Shown here: in pieces, positions 39,198-46,121 of the stretch
Numbering within the stretch: the first letter of the stretch is position 1
How the letters are laid out: each line of letters begins with the position of its first letter
From: Bacteroidota bacterium
GTDB taxonomy: Bacteria; Bacteroidota; Bacteroidia; NS11-12g; UBA955
NCBI GenBank assembly: GCA_018333525.1
Contig: JAGXTF010000118.1
Location: forward strand, 186,001-250,000
Reading direction: 5' to 3'
Length of the DNA: 64,000 nucleotides
Notes under the pieces: model-generated
Databases searched by the model: none
What the model saw: the letters and a program-made list of their open reading frames with translations, nothing else
Told to the model about the DNA's origin: nothing
Position numbers and translations under genes: made by a program

Positions 39198-39368
39198 TAA
39201 ATATTTTACAACAAACAGTGGTATTTCAGACCAAAAGGGATTTGAAATGGTTGAAAGATATTTATCCTTAAAATGAATTAGTTGGAAGAATATTTGCGAT
39301 TTTCAAATACCGGATTGTATGTTTTCGATTTCTTCAAAAACCATTTTCGTTGCAAACTGTTCCTTGAT

Positions 39369-39376
39369 TACTTTCG
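39369..39376 (+). promoter_or_regulatory. Possible -7 box TACTTTCG of the metallophosphoesterase gene
   Basis: One mismatch from TAnnTTTG, ending 7 nt before the ATG at 39384. The spacing matches the other short-leader promoters of this window. Evidence is moderate only. Confidence 0.3.
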
Positions 39377-39383
39377 CAACGAC

Positions 39384-40691
39384 ATGAGCCAAAACCTCAA
39401 ATTTCTAATCATTCTCAGCACTATTTTTCTTGCAATCGACTTTTATACCTGGCAGGGAGTGAAACTGCTTACCCAGGGCTGGAGTGACAAAGGGAAATTA
39501 ATTTTAAAACTGGTTTACTGGGGGTATACCGGTTTAAATCTTTTATTTTTTATGAGCTGGCGCATGGGTTGGTTGCAATTTCCCCATTTGGTGTTGCGCA
39601 TGGTAACGGCCATTTTTGGCATGTTGTTATTTGCAAAATTATTTTGGTGTGTGTTTTTGTTGATGGATGATTTAATAAGATTGGGCAAATGGGTTGGCAG
39701 TTTATTTCAGGGGGCCCCGGAAAATGTGTTGGATTCAGGAGTTGAAAAATCCAAAGGCATCAGTCGTTTGCGTTTTTTGAGTTACCTGGGATTTGGAGTG
39801 GGTAGCACCTTTTTTGGAACCTCTCTTTATGGCATTGCCAGAGGTGCGCATAATTATAAAGTAAGGAAAAGAGATTTATTCATCATTGGTTTACCAGAGT
39901 CTTTTGAAGGACTCAAATTGGTTCAGATTTCAGACATCCATACAGGCTCTTTCTGGGACCGAAAAGCGGTTTCCAGAGGCATTGATATGATTGCAAATTT
40001 GAAGGCAGATATGGTATTTTTTACAGGCGATCTGGTAAATGATCTTGCAGAAGAATTGCATGGATGGAAAGAATTGTATTCTAAAATTAAAGCACCGCTG
40101 GGTGTGTATTCCATTTTGGGAAATCACGATTATGGCGACTACCATCCCTGGCCGGACCACACCAGCAACAAGCCACCGCAGGCAGATAAATCCCATATGT
40201 CACCCATGCAATTAAAAAACCTGGAAAAACTCAAGGAATCGCATGCGGAAATTGGTTGGGATTTGTTGTTGGACGAACACAGAATTATAGAAAAAAACGG
40301 GCATCAAATTGCGGTTTTGGGCGTGGAAAACTGGAGCAGCAAAGCGCGATTTCCAAAATATGGAAATTTAAAATCCGCTTATGCAGGAGCGGAACATATT
40401 CCGGTAAAGCTGTTGCTGAGCCACGATCCCAGCCATTGGAGGGAGGAAGTGGTAAACCAATATTCCGATATCAAGGCCACATTTTCTGGCCACACGCATG
40501 GCATGCAATTTGGAATTGATTCCAAATTTTACCGCTGGAGTCCGGTAAAATATATGTATCCGCAATGGATAGATTTGTACACGGAAAACGAGCAGCATTT
40601 ATACGTAAACCGTGGCTTTGGATATCTTGGATTTCCGGGCCGAATGGGCGTGTATCCGGAGATTACGTTGTTTACGTTGAGGGGGAAGTAA
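39384..40691 (+). CDS. Membrane-anchored metallophosphoesterase
   Basis: A 435-residue protein with three hydrophobic segments in the first 100 residues, a linker, and a calcineurin-like phosphoesterase domain. The metal-binding motifs come in the expected order: QISDIHTG (D184, H186), FTGDLVND (GD at 215-216), LGNHDYGDYHPW (GNHD 246-249), LSHDPSHW, and SGHTHGMQFG. This is the YaeI/YkuE-type arrangement, whose members act on membrane-associated phosphate esters such as UDP-diacylglucosamine. The substrate here is not determined. ATG at 39384 starts directly at the first membrane helix. A longer frame from TTG at 39282 would add 34 residues without family support. It is the last ordinary gene before the AT-rich island. 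Confidence 0.88.
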   Translation: MSQNLKFLIILSTIFLAIDFYTWQGVKLLTQGWSDKGKLILKLVYWGYTGLNLLFFMSWRMGWLQFPHLVLRMVTAIFGMLLFAKLFWCVFLLMDDLIRLGKWVGSLFQGAPENVLDSGVEKSKGISRLRFLSYLGFGVGSTFFGTSLYGIARGAHNYKVRKRDLFIIGLPESFEGLKLVQISDIHTGSFWDRKAVSRGIDMIANLKADMVFFTGDLVNDLAEELHGWKELYSKIKAPLGVYSILGNHDYGDYHPWPDHTSNKPPQADKSHMSPMQLKNLEKLKESHAEIGWDLLLDEHRIIEKNGHQIAVLGVENWSSKARFPKYGNLKSAYAGAEHIPVKLLLSHDPSHWREEVVNQYSDIKATFSGHTHGMQFGIDSKFYRWSPVKYMYPQWIDLYTENEQHLYVNRGFGYLGFPGRMGVYPEITLFTLRGK

Positions 40692-40756
40692 AGGGGCAGG
40701 TTTTATTCCCATCGAAAAATAGCAAAATTACAAATAGTTTTTATTTATGGATAATC

Positions 40757-40811
40757 GACCAATTGTGGATTGGGTTTTTTGGACGGATTGGTCCATCGAC
40801 CTTTTTTAGCT
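40757..40811 (+). terminator. Possible terminator after the metallophosphoesterase gene
   Basis: GACCAAT pairs with a later ATTGGTC, and GGTC-CATC-GACC is a small hairpin just before a run of six T residues. Stem strength is modest, so this is tentative. Confidence 0.35.
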
Positions 40812-40818
40812 ATCAGAT

Positions 40819-41424
40819 TTAAAATGGAACAATTTTCGAATTATTATCCAATCTGAACGATTTAAAATCGATTAAAGGCGTAATATGTAATTTATTATAC
40901 TTATTCAACAAACTCCTGGAACTATCCAAATTAGAGCAATAACTTGCGGCGATGATGCTTGAAATCCAAGCTATGTTGTTACTTGAACTATCATAATTTT
41001 TGGAAACATAATAAATCTGGCACATTTCGCTTAAATAACCCGGTTCTCCTAACATGTAGTTACAATAGGCATGGTATAAATCGAAATAAATATTTTTTTC
41101 GGTTTTAACAATAACATTTTTAGCCATTTCATATTCTCCTAATCCAATACAGTACTTTATTGTGTTTTCAATGAATATATGATTATTTGGATTTAGTTTA
41201 TTTGCCATGTTCATATAGTAAATAATGCTATCTTTTTTTATTTTGTTTAATTTATATTCACGCATTATATATAAGTACGTTGCTCTATTGTTGTAAGTTA
41301 CGGCTGTCAAGGAATCACTCACAGCGTTTTGTGTCTGAGCATATTTATCATTACAATCGAATGAAATTGAGATTAAAGCTACAGATAATATAAAAGCTTT
41401 CAGATACTTATTTCTGTTTTCCAT
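40819..41424 (-). CDS. Small exported TPR-like protein, function unknown (island gene 1)
   Basis: A 201-residue protein I do not recognise. A signal peptide covers residues about 8-28 (KAFILSVALISISF). The rest is helical with TPR-like spacing (TVTYNNRATYLYIMREYKL-type helix pairs, YYMNMANKLNPNNHIFIENTIKYCIGLGEYEMAKNVI, FDLYHAYCNYMLGEPGYL). Four to five cysteines are in the mature part. Base composition is clearly more AT-rich than the flanking housekeeping genes. Repeat copy A lies 107 bp upstream of its start, as for the other three minus-strand island genes. No homologous domain joins it to those genes except loose TPR similarity to the next one. Confidence 0.65.
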   Translation of the reverse strand: MENRNKYLKAFILSVALISISFDCNDKYAQTQNAVSDSLTAVTYNNRATYLYIMREYKLNKIKKDSIIYYMNMANKLNPNNHIFIENTIKYCIGLGEYEMAKNVIVKTEKNIYFDLYHAYCNYMLGEPGYLSEMCQIYYVSKNYDSSSNNIAWISSIIAASYCSNLDSSRSLLNKYNKLHITPLIDFKSFRLDNNSKIVPF

Positions 41425-41530
41425 ATGGATATTTAGCTGTTTGGCAATAAGTTACATAATATACCCTATTTAAAATGCGATTAGATCCCATAAGTTAAGC
41501 GGGTAACTGAGATAACTGTTGGGCATTTTA

Positions 41531-41570
41531 CCATAAAACAAATTTATGAGAAATTATGGGTATTTTTATA
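41531..41570 (-). repeat. Island 5' element, copy A
   Basis: Shares CATAAAACAAATTTATG with copies C (one change) and D, and with B (one change). The core is the inverted repeat CATAAA-ACAAA-TTTATG. On the minus strand it holds TAAATTTG, an exact -7 box pointing to the gene at 41424. Flanks are more diverged than in B and D. Confidence 0.75.
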
Positions 41571-41661
41571 TAACAGTACAGGGTTATGTTTTTGAATTAA
41601 AGTTTGTTGCTTGGGATTAAAGTGCTACCGTTATCTGATAAAATAATGCCTAAATAAAATA

Positions 41662-42273
41662 TTATTTCAAAGGATACAATGCATTCCAAACCGAGTCGAG
41701 TTTGAAACGTGATTTAACATTTTCAATACCCTGGATTTGCTGTATAGTGGTGTTCTTCTGTTTTAATAATCTTTTATTAGTTTCAATAATATACTTTGGG
41801 CCAAATAAAAAATATTCGCTTATATATTTGTATTCATAGTATATATATGCTTGTTTTTTGTCCATTGGAGGTTCATTATTTAGTTTAGTAATAATCCATT
41901 TGAAGTCTTTTTTTGCATTATTTGTATCCAGTATATTCAGAAATGTCTCGGCTCTTTCATAATGAAATAACACTGATTCTGGATATAAGCGCAACAATGA
42001 GTTATATGTATTAATCAATCCATGGTTATCAGATTTAAAATCTTGAACGCCTTTTAACATTTGCAAACATGAAGCACAATTGGAATCACATTTTAGAGCT
42101 TTTAGAGTTAAAACCTCAATTGTGTCAAGCAGCTTGGACTCTTGTAAACTTGTTAAATTATTAGATTCGCTAAATTCCTTAAAGAGGGCTCTCGCAGAGT
42201 CCATATATTTATTCTTATTGCAATAGTTGCATCCCGTAAAAAATATACCAAATAGTAATACGTATTTCCACAT
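41662..42273 (-). CDS. Small TPR-like lipoprotein (island gene 2)
   Basis: A 203-residue protein from the ATG at 42273. This start is preferred over 42306 because it places a lipobox (FGIFFTGC) at the right distance from the N-terminus (MWKYVLLFGIFFTGCNYCN). The mature part is helical with TPR-like blocks: SLQESKLLDTIEVLTLKALKCDSNCASCLQ, then HGLINTYNSLLRLYPESVLFHYERAETFLNIL and NAKKDFKWII. It has a cluster of cysteines (CDSNCASC). I do not recognise the family. It may be distantly related to the previous gene, sharing size, TPR-like helices and export. Repeat copy B lies 104 bp upstream of this start. Confidence 0.65.
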   Translation of the reverse strand: MWKYVLLFGIFFTGCNYCNKNKYMDSARALFKEFSESNNLTSLQESKLLDTIEVLTLKALKCDSNCASCLQMLKGVQDFKSDNHGLINTYNSLLRLYPESVLFHYERAETFLNILDTNNAKKDFKWIITKLNNEPPMDKKQAYIYYEYKYISEYFLFGPKYIIETNKRLLKQKNTTIQQIQGIENVKSRFKLDSVWNALYPLK

Positions 42274-42370
42274 GTACAAAAAATTTACATTTCGGTTCGA
42301 CAACAACCATACATTTTATCTCAAATTGATAACTTAAAGTCAAATGGGTATCGTGTATAATCTGCTTGGA

Positions 42371-42419
42371 GCTGAACCATAAAACGAATTTATGAGATTT
42401 CGTCCGGAATTTTCTTATA
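42371..42419 (-). repeat. Island 5' element, copy B
   Basis: GCTGAACCATAAAACGAATT and the following TATGAGATTTCGTCCGGAAT match copy D closely. The -7 box here is TAAATTCG, one mismatch. It lies upstream of the gene at 42273. Confidence 0.8.
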
Positions 42420-42632
42420 GCGGGGAGACAGAACGATAATACATTCCAGGCTATGGATCCGTTAGTTTCAGAGAAATGCCGGACGGGATGACGCCAGAGA
42501 ATATGGCTAGCAACCATAAGAGCGGCAATAGAATGAAACCATGGAAATATGTTCGACTATCTTACCAAACTATATTGCGGTAAAGTATAATTGACCGGAC
42601 AAAAGGCTCGTGAAAAAAGCAAATCGGATAGT
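42420..42632. other. Gap with a GC-richer coding-like fragment
   Basis: Between copy B and the next gene. A stop-free stretch of 47 codons on the plus strand (42440-42583) reads YIPGYGSVSFREMPDGMTPE and then ENMASNHKSGNRMKPW, ending at TAA. It has no start codon at its 5' end and is less AT-rich than the island around it. It resembles the end of a broken gene, but I recognise no family. Nothing else is visible. Confidence 0.3.
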
Positions 42633-43022
42633 TTATTTGATTTTGACACTGAAATAGAGCAATGACAATGAAAGAACACCGATGCCAATTACAATAGAAC
42701 TCGAAATAATGAGTACTTTCTTTTTGCCTATTTTATTTATATCTTCAATAGCGGTCCAATAAGCTTTATAGAATTCTTCCCTTAATATAAAAAAGATAAT
42801 ATTCAATACAATATACGTCATCATAACAGTTAAGAACGCGTCCAGAAAAGAGAGATCTGTCCAATTGGACAATCCTGTATAAAAGACTAACTGAAGAAAA
42901 GTAATAAATTTAGGTGCATATTCAAATGGATGTGAAAGAATCCTTGAACCAAAATTCAGGTATTCCAAGTAAAAGAAAAAGTAATATATAAATGTCTTTT
43001 TCTTCATTTTCTTTTTTCTCAT
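42633..43022 (-). CDS. Small polytopic membrane protein (island gene 3)
   Basis: A 129-residue protein with a very basic N-terminus (MRKKKMKKK) and about three membrane segments: FIYYFFFYLEYLNF with the following PKFITFLQLVFYTGL, FLDAFLTVMMTYIVLNIIFFIL, and VLIISSSIVIGIGVLSLSLLYF. Between the last two lies an amphipathic charged helix (REEFYKAYWTAIEDINKIGKKK). By the positive-inside rule the N-terminus is cytoplasmic. No family is recognised. The alternative start at codon 6 is equally plausible. Strongly AT-rich. Repeat copy C lies 105 bp upstream, and its leader shares short blocks with that of island gene 4. Confidence 0.6.
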   Translation of the reverse strand: MRKKKMKKKTFIYYFFFYLEYLNFGSRILSHPFEYAPKFITFLQLVFYTGLSNWTDLSFLDAFLTVMMTYIVLNIIFFILREEFYKAYWTAIEDINKIGKKKVLIISSSIVIGIGVLSLSLLYFSVKIK

Positions 43023-43120
43023 TGTTTATTTCTGGGTGAGTATTTCGGTTTAAAATCCCCTATTTTTTACTGCAAATTGCCGCCATATTGGAAAAAGACT
43101 TCTTTGACGATTTGCGAGGA

Positions 43121-43170
43121 GCTGAGCCATAAAACAAATTTAAGAGATTTAGTTTGGAAATTTTCTATTG
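43121..43170 (-). repeat. Island 5' element, copy C
   Basis: Starts GCTGAGCCATAAAACAAATT and ends TTTTCTATT-like, as in the other copies; the TTTATG arm is changed to TTTAAG. The minus strand carries an exact TAAATTTG box directed at the gene at 43022. Confidence 0.75.
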
Positions 43171-43267
43171 TGGTACAAGAGTGCGCTTTTACGACTTAGG
43201 TTGAATAATTGGGAATCGCATTTACTGTTAAGTAAAATCTTTTCTGAATAAGTCTAAAAGATGAAAA

Positions 43268-43717
43268 TTATCTTTTGAACCAAGAATCACCATTTGACGA
43301 ATTTCGATAACTAATTAGGTCTAAACTATCACCGTTTTTAATGCAGGAAAAACCATAATCCGAATCTGATGGGGCAAATTTTAAGGCAAAACCTCCCTTT
43401 ATCTTTGTTTTAATAGGGTAACCATTTTCAAAATAAATAGTAAAAATATGATTATCTGAGAGTTGTACGTGCGCGTATATGTGCTTCGCAGATGGAATAT
43501 TTGGATTTTGGGCTGAGTCTTTATTTCGCATGAATATTCTGAAAGACAACGTATCCGAGTAACTTTGAACCAGGCCGAAATCAACTTTATATTTAAGATT
43601 ATTTACCCTTAACAGGCTATCTATTTTATGCGGTAATCTTATACCTTCCGAACGCTTTTCAATATTATTGAAGGACGTCAGATAAAAAAATAGAAATGAA
43701 ATTGTTATTACTTTCAT
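43268..43717 (-). CDS. Small exported protein, function unknown (island gene 4)
   Basis: A 149-residue protein with a short N-terminal signal-like segment (VITISFLFFYLTSF). The mature part looks beta-rich: YKVDFGLVQSYSDTLSFRIF, AKHIYAHVQLSDNHIFTIYF, then a GFALKFAPSDSDYGFSCIKN block. I recognise no family. It is AT-rich like the other island genes and shares no clear sequence with them, yet its upstream region contains copy D 91 bp from the ATG. The leader also has TGTTTATT next to the start and ACTGCAAATT (plus-strand sense), both also present in the leader of island gene 3. Confidence 0.6.
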   Translation of the reverse strand: MKVITISFLFFYLTSFNNIEKRSEGIRLPHKIDSLLRVNNLKYKVDFGLVQSYSDTLSFRIFMRNKDSAQNPNIPSAKHIYAHVQLSDNHIFTIYFENGYPIKTKIKGGFALKFAPSDSDYGFSCIKNGDSLDLISYRNSSNGDSWFKR

Positions 43718-43801
43718 TGTTTATTCATTTAGCTCATGGCCTGCATGTCACTGCAAATTTACCTCGGGAGTCAATTTGGCATCTAAGGAAAACTATCAGG
43801 T

Positions 43802-43850
43802 GCTGAACCATAAAACAAATTTATGAGAATTCGTCCGGGATTTTTCTATT
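43802..43850 (-). repeat. Island 5' element, copy D
   Basis: GCTGAACCATAAAACAAATT followed by TATGAGAATTCGTCCGGGAT and TTTTCTATT. It is the copy closest to B. It contains an exact TAAATTTG box on the minus strand, upstream of the gene at 43717. Confidence 0.8.
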
Positions 43851-43962
43851 TCTGCTTCATGATTTACATGATGAAACACAAGCACCTACCATGGGCGTGT
43901 CTTCTTGTGGAGGCTGGTCGGAGTTTGTTGCCGTTGGTGGTTTGATGGCTGCGCCTGATCAA
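43851..43962. other. Gap with a degenerate third copy of the recX upstream motif
   Basis: ATGATGAAACACAAGCACCT and the following ACCATGGGCGTGTCTTC align with TGATCAAACACGAACACC and AACCGCGGGAACGTCTTC at 43957 onward, and with the same stretch at 44527 onward. No gene is visible here. Confidence 0.45.
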
Positions 43963-44100
43963 ACACGAACACCAACCGCGGGAACGTCTTCGGTTTAGAA
44001 ATGGTGAAAGGTTACGCTTTGGTGCTTGCTGCTGCAAGCACCAAAGCGTAATTTTGATCCCGGAATGAAAAAAACAAATCTGGGATTTGAAGAAGCCGTT
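43963..44100 (+). repeat. Duplicated recX 5' region, extra copy
   Basis: Nearly identical to 44532-44672: one 3-nt indel and about three substitutions over about 140 bp. It contains ACACGAACACCAACCGCGGG, a hairpin with perfect 18-bp arms and a TGCT loop (44012-44051), a TAATTTTG -7 box (44049-44056) and the first 12 recX codons. It ends where the small lipoprotein gene begins. Confidence 0.92.
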
Positions 44101-44106
44101 CAATAA
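44065..44106 (+). pseudogene. Truncated recX start (13 codons)
   Basis: The frame MKKTNLGFEEAVQ then stops. The first 12 residues equal the true RecX N-terminus. The stop codon lies 2 nt before the ATG of the lipoprotein gene, so ribosomes finishing this mini-frame could re-initiate there. Whether it is translated is unknown. Confidence 0.75.
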
Positions 44107-44108
44107 AC

Positions 44109-44492
44109 ATGATTATGAGTAAATATTCTTTAATATTGATTTTAATATTATTGACAAATTGCGGTCAGAAAGAAGCAATAAGAATGTCAAGTAAAATTGT
44201 TGGTCTATATTTTCAGGAATATGGCATTTATAGAATATACCATGATAGTTGTTTTGATGTGAACTTGAATGCTGGTCAAATATATTACAATGAAAAACAG
44301 AATCTTCTTATTTCTCGGTACGAGTCGAACACTAGAACTGATTCTTTGTTTCAAGTATTTTCCTTCTTAAATTGTTCTATAAGGGAGCTTAATCCTGATT
44401 CTATAATTATCATTAGCAATGAAAAATATAGGATTAGAGATTTGGATTACAAGAGTCCGGAGGAATATGATATTATTTCGCAGAATAAATAG
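44109..44492 (+). CDS. Small lipoprotein behind a duplicated recX promoter
   Basis: A 127-residue protein (125 if the second ATG at 44115 is used). The N-terminus is a lipoprotein signal with lipobox ILLTNC (Cys at about 18). The mature part of about 110 residues is probably beta-rich: KIVGLYFQEYGIYRIYHDSC, QIYYNEKQNLLISRYESN, LFQVFSFLNCSIRELN. I recognise no family. It is AT-rich and resembles the island genes rather than its recX neighbour. It is the only island gene on the plus strand. Its upstream region is the copied recX promoter and N-terminus, so it is probably transcribed like recX. The true recX copy of that segment begins 40 bp after its stop. Confidence 0.7.
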   Translation: MIMSKYSLILILILLTNCGQKEAIRMSSKIVGLYFQEYGIYRIYHDSCFDVNLNAGQIYYNEKQNLLISRYESNTRTDSLFQVFSFLNCSIRELNPDSIIIISNEKYRIRDLDYKSPEEYDIISQNK

Positions 44493-44531
44493 TACCAAAT
44501 CTTTTTTCCACTATCTGAAGTTGTATATGAT

Positions 44532-44672
44532 ACACGAACACCAACCGCGGGAACGTCTTCGGTTTAGAAATGGTGAAAGGTTACGCTTTGTAGGTGCTTG
44601 CTGCTGCAAGCACCAAAGCGTAATTTTGATCCCGGAATGAAAAAGACCAATCTCGGATTTGAAGAAGCCGTT
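44532..44672 (+). repeat. recX 5' region, native copy
   Basis: The partner of 43963-44100. The hairpin (44581-44623) has the same arms with a 3-nt insertion in the left arm. TAATTTTG (44621-44628) is an exact -7 box ending 8 nt before the recX ATG, so the hairpin base touches the promoter. This makes it more likely a promoter-associated operator or structure than a terminator. Confidence 0.9.
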
Positions 44673-45107
44673 TCCAAAATTGAAAAATATTGTGCCTACC
44701 AGGAACGTTATCATAGAGAAGTTGAAACAAAACTGAAATCCTATGGCCTGCGCGATGCGGATATTCAGGATATTCTGGTGATGCTTATCCGAAAGGGATT
44801 TCTCAATGAACAGCGCTTTACCAAAGCCTATGCCGGTGGCAAATACAGGGTTCTGGGTTGGGGGAGAAAAAAAATCATTTACCAATTGAAATCCAAAGGA
44901 ATAAACAGTAAAATAATTGAGGAAGCTTTGCTGGAAATTCCGGAAGATGGCTATGGAGAAACCCTGAAACATCTGATAGAAAAGAAAGACAAGGCACTGG
45001 GAACGAGCCCGGTTGAAATAAAAAAACAAAAAATTAGCAGGTATCTGTTGCAAAAAGGATATGAAATGGAAATGGTAATCGCAGAAATAAAGAAATTTTA
45101 TACATGA
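44637..45107 (+). CDS. recX: RecA regulator RecX
   Basis: A 156-residue RecX-family protein, a modulator that binds RecA filaments. The helical triplet repeats are visible: EEAVSKIEKYCAYQERYHREVETKLKSYGL, DIQDILVMLIRKGFLNEQRFTKAYAGGK, GWGRKKIIYQLKSKGINSKIIEEALLEI, and a C-terminal RYLLQKGYEMEMVIAEIKKF. ATG at 44637 is chosen because upstream codons run through the hairpin, and the -7 box TAATTTTG ends 8 nt before it. The stop overlaps the next gene (ATGA). recA is not in the window. Its 5' end is duplicated upstream. Confidence 0.9.
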   Translation: MKKTNLGFEEAVSKIEKYCAYQERYHREVETKLKSYGLRDADIQDILVMLIRKGFLNEQRFTKAYAGGKYRVLGWGRKKIIYQLKSKGINSKIIEEALLEIPEDGYGETLKHLIEKKDKALGTSPVEIKKQKISRYLLQKGYEMEMVIAEIKKFYT

Positions 45108-45289
45108 GAAATGCCAGCTTTTTCATATTGTTAATGTTGCTGTTGCCATCCTGTGTTACCCGGTCTAAATATAACCAGGTATTGGATTCCATCCACAGCA
45201 AAGGCAAACAGAAAGTGAAGTTGGAAAAACAGCTGGAAGCATTGAAATTGGAAAATGAAAACCTGCGCGACAGTGCAGAAAGAATATAA
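45104..45289 (+). CDS. Small coiled-coil lipoprotein
   Basis: A 61-residue protein: a lipoprotein signal with lipobox LLLPSC, then C-V-T-R-S-K-Y and a coiled coil to the end (KQKVKLEKQLEALKLENENL). It consists of nothing but the anchor-plus-coil module that also starts the next gene's product and a later TPR lipoprotein. It overlaps the recX stop by 4 bp and is followed 4 bp later by the CAP-domain lipoprotein gene, so all three are likely co-transcribed. It might be a relic of a partial duplication or a genuine small Lpp-like spacer. Confidence 0.7.
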   Translation: MRNASFFILLMLLLPSCVTRSKYNQVLDSIHSKGKQKVKLEKQLEALKLENENLRDSAERI

Positions 45290-45293
45290 AAAA

Positions 45294-46121
45294 ATGAAGT
45301 ATCAGGCCATTGTATCCATGATTTTTCTTACCTCCTGTGTTTCCCTTGCGGAATACAAAAGTAAAAAAATGGAGCTGGCCGAATTGGAAAAAGGCAATAA
45401 AGATTTAAGAAAAGAAATAAAAAGTTTAGAAAAGGAAAAGAAGGTTTTAACCGATACCATACGCAACAGAAATGAGCGGAATCAATTGCTGTCAAATGCA
45501 ATAAAACGGAGGCTGGAAGCGCATAAAATTAAAACCAAAATACAATCGCGTGATCTGGCAGGATTGACCATCAGCTATCCTGTTACCAATCCGGAATCCT
45601 ATGCAGAATTGATGCAAAAGCACAAAAACCGCGATACAAATTCTGCAAAAAATATGGCATGGTTGAGCGAAAAAGAAAAGAAAGTTTATTACTGGTTAAA
45701 TGTTGCAAGGCTGAACCCACGTGAGTTTTGCAATACTTATATTATTCCGAAATGGAAGCGCGATACCAACGATATTTATTTGTTAACCCTGATAGATTAT
45801 ATGTATGCCATGAAGCCCATGAATGCGTTGAAGCCGGATAAAACCCTTTTTGAAAATGCAAAATGCCATGCAGTTTCATCAGGAAAAACAGGATATGTGG
45901 GCCACCAAAGACAGAATAGCGAGTGTAAATCCGGGTTTTGGGCAGAGTGCTGTTCATACGGTATAGAAGATCCATTGGGAATCGTTTTGCAATTGTTGGT
46001 AGATCAGGGAGTACCTTCATTGGGGCACCGTTATATTTGTTTAGGCTGGTATGAAAACTGCGGCATTTCTCAAGCCCCACATAAGGGATTTACAGTAAAT
46101 ACCGTTTTGGATTTTAATTAA
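45294..46121 (+). CDS. CAP/SCP-domain lipoprotein with coiled-coil neck
   Basis: A 275-residue lipoprotein. MKYQAIVSMIFLTSC is the signal and lipobox, followed by CVSLAEYKSKK and a long coiled coil (MELAELEKGNKDLRKEIKSL and on to about residue 65). The C-terminal half is a CAP-superfamily domain: EKKVYYWLNVARLNPREFCNTYI, NALKPDKTLFENAKCHAVSS, then GYVGHQRQN and SLGHRYICLGWYENCGIS, which supply the conserved His residues of the CAP cavity. Six or more cysteines in the domain suggest disulfides. CAP proteins are extracytoplasmic with varied roles; function here is unknown. The codons before 45294 overlap the previous gene and are not used. Confidence 0.82.
   Translation: MKYQAIVSMIFLTSCVSLAEYKSKKMELAELEKGNKDLRKEIKSLEKEKKVLTDTIRNRNERNQLLSNAIKRRLEAHKIKTKIQSRDLAGLTISYPVTNPESYAELMQKHKNRDTNSAKNMAWLSEKEKKVYYWLNVARLNPREFCNTYIIPKWKRDTNDIYLLTLIDYMYAMKPMNALKPDKTLFENAKCHAVSSGKTGYVGHQRQNSECKSGFWAECCSYGIEDPLGIVLQLLVDQGVPSLGHRYICLGWYENCGISQAPHKGFTVNTVLDFN

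Follow-up and report, generated by a model that had tools for sequence, protein, structure and literature searches.

Insertion with long target duplication, the described process closest to the arrangement reported here, was named in Helicobacter for restriction-modification genes (in passages of PMC1643837, PMC3031569 and PMC3154945), and Nobusato et al. 2000 (Gene 259:99) is the source cited for it in PMC1643837 and PMC3031569. Also relevant are the RAYT genes of Bacteroidetes, a subclass of which (subclass 2.6 / group 5) is described in a passage of PMC6006769 as flanked by atypical secondary structures, and the sigma-A promoter of Bacteroidota, for which passages of PMC6847099 give a revised box of TAHHTTTG, a weak upstream TTTG element and, in F. 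johnsoniae, 4-5 nt between box and transcription start. Few leaderless mRNAs are reported for F. johnsoniae and F. psychrophilum in the corresponding passages of PMC6847099 and PMC9723704.

The recX locus of the Bacteroidota genome studied here resembles the Helicobacter cases in that a foreign gene is flanked by a long direct target duplication of variable length, and in that the insert lacks a transposase (at recX and at the dehydrogenase and arsC loci described below). The Helicobacter examples concern restriction-modification genes and were established by strain comparison, whereas the genes here, in a Bacteroidota genome, encode a lipoprotein, a ThiJ-like protein and a GIY-YIG protein; none is a restriction-modification system, an association that is frequent and not strictly defining. 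Unlike in the Helicobacter description, the duplicated end here carries a promoter together with a start codon. On the sequence evidence assembled below we favor, with moderate confidence, an insertion with long target duplication at the start of recX, which would have captured a nearly leaderless promoter ahead of an orphan lipoprotein gene. Insertion with long target duplication is itself known; among the papers listed on promoter capture with duplication and horizontal transfer, on long-target insertion with a promoter, and on target duplication with restriction-modification and Bacteroidetes, none matched the present combination. An integron cassette was also considered, by eye only, the attC core motif seeming no fit.

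The window, by which we mean the whole 64,000-nt stretch of DNA analyzed, was compared against itself with blastn, and the two copies of the unit at recX (Table 1) aligned over 141 columns with 95.7% identity (E 2e-59). The six columns that differ are accounted for by one 3-nt gap within the hairpin and by three substitutions, each of them synonymous (AAA/AAG, ACA/ACC, CTG/CTC) and located in the 12 codons of recX that both copies hold; the copies are otherwise identical, and the longest exact run common to both is 59 nt. Synonymous-only differences were dismissed as a sign of an imported allele, the numbers being too small. Reading of the frames showed that in copy 1 the recX frame reaches its TAA at 44104-44106 after 13 codons, 12 of them shared with recX, and that the ATG of the lipoprotein ORF stands two bases further on. 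The sequence-only reading had described a near-identical repeat of about 140 bp with one 3-nt indel and about three substitutions, and a recX frame that stops after 13 codons with the lipoprotein gene 2 nt further on, and was borne out to the base; the -7 box that it had marked is likewise present in both copies, at a place where the boxes of this genome cluster. The large hairpin that it had reported is real, with a perfect 18-bp stem in copy 1 (44012-44029/44034-44051) and a DNA fold of -23.1 kcal/mol (z -9.3 against 200 shuffles), but, as a member of a dispersed REP-like family, it is no structure peculiar to recX.

Table 1. Features of the recX locus (positions in the window).
Feature	Position	Strand	Remark
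Metallophosphoesterase gene	39282..40691	+	ORF; LpxG/YaeI-type NCBIfam matches below cut-off
Remaining island: four small low-G+C ORFs (40819-41424, 41662-42306, 42633-43022, 43268-43717)	40819..43717	-	
Repeat, one of four (others 41514-41577, 42360-42423, 43110-43173)	43791..43854	-	Upstream of minus-strand ORFs
First hairpin of REP-like composite	43933..43977	+	Complete only in copy 1
Duplicated unit, copy 1	43963..44100	+	blastn
Second hairpin, copy 1	44012..44051	+	18-bp perfect stem
TTG 23 nt before box start, weak signal	44026..44028	+	Best-populated spacing in genome
-7 box TAATTTTG, copy 1	44049..44056	+	At -16 from ATG
recX frame, truncated	44065..44106	+	13 codons and TAA
Inserted 431-bp segment	44101..44531	+	Between copies 1 and 2
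Orphan lipoprotein gene	44109..44492	+	127 aa; LTNC lipobox-like (by eye); 28% G+C
Duplicated unit, copy 2	44532..44672	+	blastn
Second hairpin, copy 2	44581..44623	+	With 3-nt bulge
-7 box TAATTTTG, copy 2	44621..44628	+	
recX, intact	44637..45107	+	156 aa

The G+C content of the lipoprotein gene compares with 39.6% for the window, and no match to its product was obtained in 107 other genomes of the order. Its ORF is intact with a signal-peptide-like start, and its predicted structure (mean pLDDT 34) is not interpretable. Judged from the layout of the frames, the lipoprotein is probably translated by termination-reinitiation from the short frame that ends just before its ATG.

Promoter boxes were surveyed in 69 stretches (about 1.34 Mb), which yielded 437 upstream regions of ORFs of at least 120 aa preceded by a gap of at least 120 bp. 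A TAnnTTTG box begins between -20 and -11 from the ATG in 47 cases against 2.2 expected (21-fold), and a reversed-motif control does so in 2; the stricter TAHHTTTG gave 46, with -12 as the commonest place (13/46). Smaller samples from two relatives point the same way (8 boxes in 71 regions of G011, 4 in 59 of G009). When boxes followed by an ATG at least 11 nt behind the box start (search window 12 nt) were collected, an ORF of at least 100 aa was found in 135/318, against 16-21% for four control motifs. The TAATTTTG box of recX fits TAHHTTTG, and its start at -16 in both copies is genome-typical. With the box-to-start spacing of F. johnsoniae, leaders in this genome would be about 0-8 nt and that of recX 3-4 nt, nearly leaderless, so that the recX promoter could not be copied without its start codon. 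Together the positions of the boxes suggest widespread leaderless or nearly leaderless mRNAs, a habit that would be notable in itself, since published flavobacteria have few such mRNAs whereas the boxes here peak at leaderless spacing.

The recX promoter departs from the Bacteroidota pattern in having no TTTG at the -33 place, about 19 nt upstream of the box, and only a TTG, which stands at the upstream spacing used by 9/77; TTTG-N17-21-TAnnTTTG occurs nowhere in the 64-kb window. The REP-like element appears to supply part of this promoter, as the TTG lies within its second hairpin. Short frames followed by a gene are not enriched behind boxes genome-wide (26/318, against 30/359, 32/252, 29/215 and 45/385 for controls), and the mini-frame by itself therefore proves nothing. 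A sigma-70-type promoter scan, with 6 promoter-like sites against 3.2 expected, was discarded; scanning for intrinsic terminators found none, and a search of Rfam gave no match.

About two thirds of the duplicated unit is a dispersed two-hairpin REP-like element and not specific to recX; at copy 1 the element is complete, with its whole first hairpin (from 43933), and copy 2 begins inside the first hairpin. The proposal of the sequence-only reading that the lipoprotein gene lies behind a copied recX promoter holds for a putative promoter-plus-start unit duplicated before an orphan gene, a unit most of which is not recX sequence. Contig C14 ends in a 141-bp tandem array with three complete copies and a partial fourth copy of the hairpin part, and has one more copy besides; others stand at the C115 end. 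The first hairpin also occurs on C58, C90, C104 and C31. Both contigs that carry the 141-bp two-hairpin tandem repeat (L009 7898-8421 and L010 6306-6494) end inside it, and the true array may be longer. Among 107 other genomes of the order, the composite element gave one weak match only.

The genome has three Y1-type transposase genes, of which those on C104 and C58 adjoin hairpins of the GGTTGGTG...CACCAACC type, as dispersed in the genome, and that on C59 sits between hairpin blocks of different sequence; on C104 and C59 the hairpin blocks flanking the gene are directly repeated. The C104 protein matched NCBIfam REP_Tyr_transpos NF047646 with E 2e-20 and 73.2 bits, under the curated cut-off of 80, and Y1 transposase was matched to PF01797 at 20.7 bits (cut-off 23). 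From these sequences we read the Y1 genes and hairpins as RAYT genes with REP-like elements. The likeness to REP/RAYT systems is that the hairpins dispersed through this genome are also found next to one of its Y1 transposase genes; the difference is that the unit at recX consists of REP plus recX sequence and that the lipoprotein gene is no RAYT. In the relative G009 (L193 2669-6129), fragments made up of the 3' end of a Y1 transposase gene plus hairpin occur at three places within 3.5 kb.

Direct repeats were surveyed in 70 stretches of the same genome (1,341,131 bases, 36% of the genome), a non-random set of long contigs and REP-bearing regions in which cases were picked by eye. Of 25 rows that passed the filter, four have a gene end duplicated around an unrelated gene, namely recX, a short-chain dehydrogenase gene, arsC and a tRNA-Arg gene; the rest comprise REP-like arrays, paralogous genes and tandem tails, together with unclassified rows. 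At the dehydrogenase gene (L143 5251-6420; C118:125251-126420) the leader and about 16 first codons are duplicated (63 bp, 92%), and the copy precedes, in frame, a ThiJ/PfpI-like gene within a segment of 60% G+C, compared with about 39% for the genome. No exact TAnnTTTG box was seen by eye in this copy. In 295 other genomes of the phylum the ThiJ/PfpI-like gene is missing; among the matches listed, its plasmid relatives (about 50% identical) come from Agrobacterium, Streptomyces and Staphylococcus, with the best in Agrobacterium and Streptomyces. At arsC (L009 4320-5591) the last 81 bp of the gene recur (94%) behind a lipoprotein gene and REP-like hairpins. At tRNA-Arg(CCT) (L010 1384-1782, on C115) the first 17 nt and 26 nt upstream are duplicated as 43 identical bp on the far side of a GIY-YIG gene (region L010 1328-1782). 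At arsC it is the 3' end that is duplicated, at the other three loci the 5' end, a difference that we count against the insertion reading.

Two candidates from the same genome were rejected: a lipoprotein gene near uvrA (L049) flanked by a 61-bp pair, where the repeat itself is a REP-like hairpin, and the C-terminal tail of a secreted protein, repeated in tandem along with a hairpin (L151), a different phenomenon. In relatives, 9 rows passed the filter in 0.4 Mb of four genomes and included two possible cases, both in G009 and neither counted. In one (L194 5399-6144) an IS200-like Y1 gene separates a 554-aa gene, which looks hsdM-like by eye, from its neighbor, and is flanked by a 43-bp copy (88%) of the 3' end of the 554-aa gene; the other (L193) involves a signal-peptide region common to neighboring genes.

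The surroundings of the repeat were compared with the recX loci of 27 relatives. The metallophosphoesterase gene was found in three of them (L053, L068 and L055), each time as the neighbor of recX at about 63, 93 and 424 bp (between alignment ends), and tblastn with the island proteins gave no match in any of the 27. The adjacency of the two genes without island genes, which had been named beforehand as supporting evidence, is therefore seen, and this lineage carries an additional stretch of about 3.8 kb (40692-44531). This empty arrangement is known from other genera only (RecX about 42-47% identical), too diverged to show a single unit, and the order of events at recX is one that we infer. 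The view that the duplication is the scar of an insertion survives for the lipoprotein segment and fails for the whole island, the repeat bracketing 44101-44531 only. The four minus-strand ORFs form a block separate from the duplicated unit. Each is preceded by one repeat made up of TAAATTTG (TAAATTCG in one), TTTT, ATG and a frame of 17-26 codons that ends 16-56 nt before the adopted ORF start; the repeats are 63-78% identical over 64 bp to the reference copy, their box stands at -12, the commonest spacing in the genome, and their 20-base core has no further occurrence in the genome when up to two mismatches are allowed. With the island proteins, Pfam, PADLOC and NCBIfam gave no match other than two from Pfam that lie under the cut-off and are of doubtful meaning. 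On the other side of recX, the window holds two further ORFs at 45104-46121 before an amidohydrolase-like gene, a gap of only about 240 bp in the relative G008.

A mis-join through a repeat could produce such a layout in a draft, probably metagenome-derived, genome of 118 contigs, two of which (C14 and C115) end in related repeat. An error of this kind is nevertheless very improbable, because three substitutions and a 3-nt gap tell the copies apart, their longest identical run, of 59 bases, is easily spanned by a single short read, and the same architecture stands at three unrelated loci. The insertion and its target duplication might instead be real and the copied promoter silent or irrelevant, with the lipoprotein gene decaying. 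The orphan protein has no relatives in the sets searched and copy 1 carries a 3-nt deletion in its hairpin relative to other family members, both of which speak for a neutral scar; we nonetheless think this unlikely, as the box of copy 1 is exact and stands at the distance typical of the genome, its frame is open and differs only synonymously, and the lipoprotein ORF is undamaged.

The duplication may also have arisen through a REP/RAYT event, in which the lipoprotein gene would be a REP-flanked passenger or one-ended Y1 activity would have carried the REP together with adjacent host sequence. The start of the duplicated unit inside a REP-like hairpin, the arsC duplicate directly beside such hairpins, the directly repeated blocks around the RAYT genes on C104 and C59 and the scattered Y1 3' end and hairpin fragments in G009 all speak for it, and yet the dehydrogenase/ThiJ and tRNA-Arg/GIY-YIG loci were unmatched by REP-like queries. 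We know of no long target duplications made by Y1 transposases, and rate such an event as distinctly unlikely.

If an insertion with long target duplication took place at recX, the orphan lipoprotein gene would have entered the start of recX as a 431-bp segment, and about 140 bp of target, comprising the 3' part of the upstream REP-like element, the recX promoter and 12 codons, would have been duplicated. The right-hand copy would keep recX whole, and the left-hand copy would now precede the lipoprotein gene, which would inherit a nearly leaderless 13-codon frame with reinitiation 2 nt downstream. The duplication could proceed by fill-in of a widely staggered break, a route that would need an end-joining step. 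No match to Ku was found in the genome (97.8% complete), and Ku-dependent end joining of filler DNA was therefore put aside as unlikely. Backward template switching during replication would also fit the duplication. All three substitutions fall in the coding part (36/138 bp), a distribution for which one simple duplication is only a loose explanation.

The arrangement bears on how foreign genes gain expression signals in Bacteroidota, whose promoters are unlike those of other phyla. Box and start codon are here often no more than about 20 bp apart, so that both would be cloned when 60-140 bp are duplicated at a gene start, and where mRNAs often begin at or near the start codon a copied promoter would bring the start codon and first codons with it. 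We tentatively raise the possibility, to which we give less than even weight, that where mRNAs often start at AUG foreign genes repeatedly gain a working promoter through insertion with long target duplication, every insertion near a gene start cloning promoter, start codon and first codons to yield a reinitiating mini-frame, as for recX/lipoprotein, or an in-frame fusion, as for dehydrogenase/ThiJ, and repeats of the process at one place building arrays like that of the four minus-strand orphan genes with their diverged copies of one promoter-plus-ATG. As a single genome shows four such loci in about 1.3 Mb, a systematic count would be worthwhile; if the proposal is true, long target duplication at gene starts would amount to one-step delivery of a promoter plus start codon.
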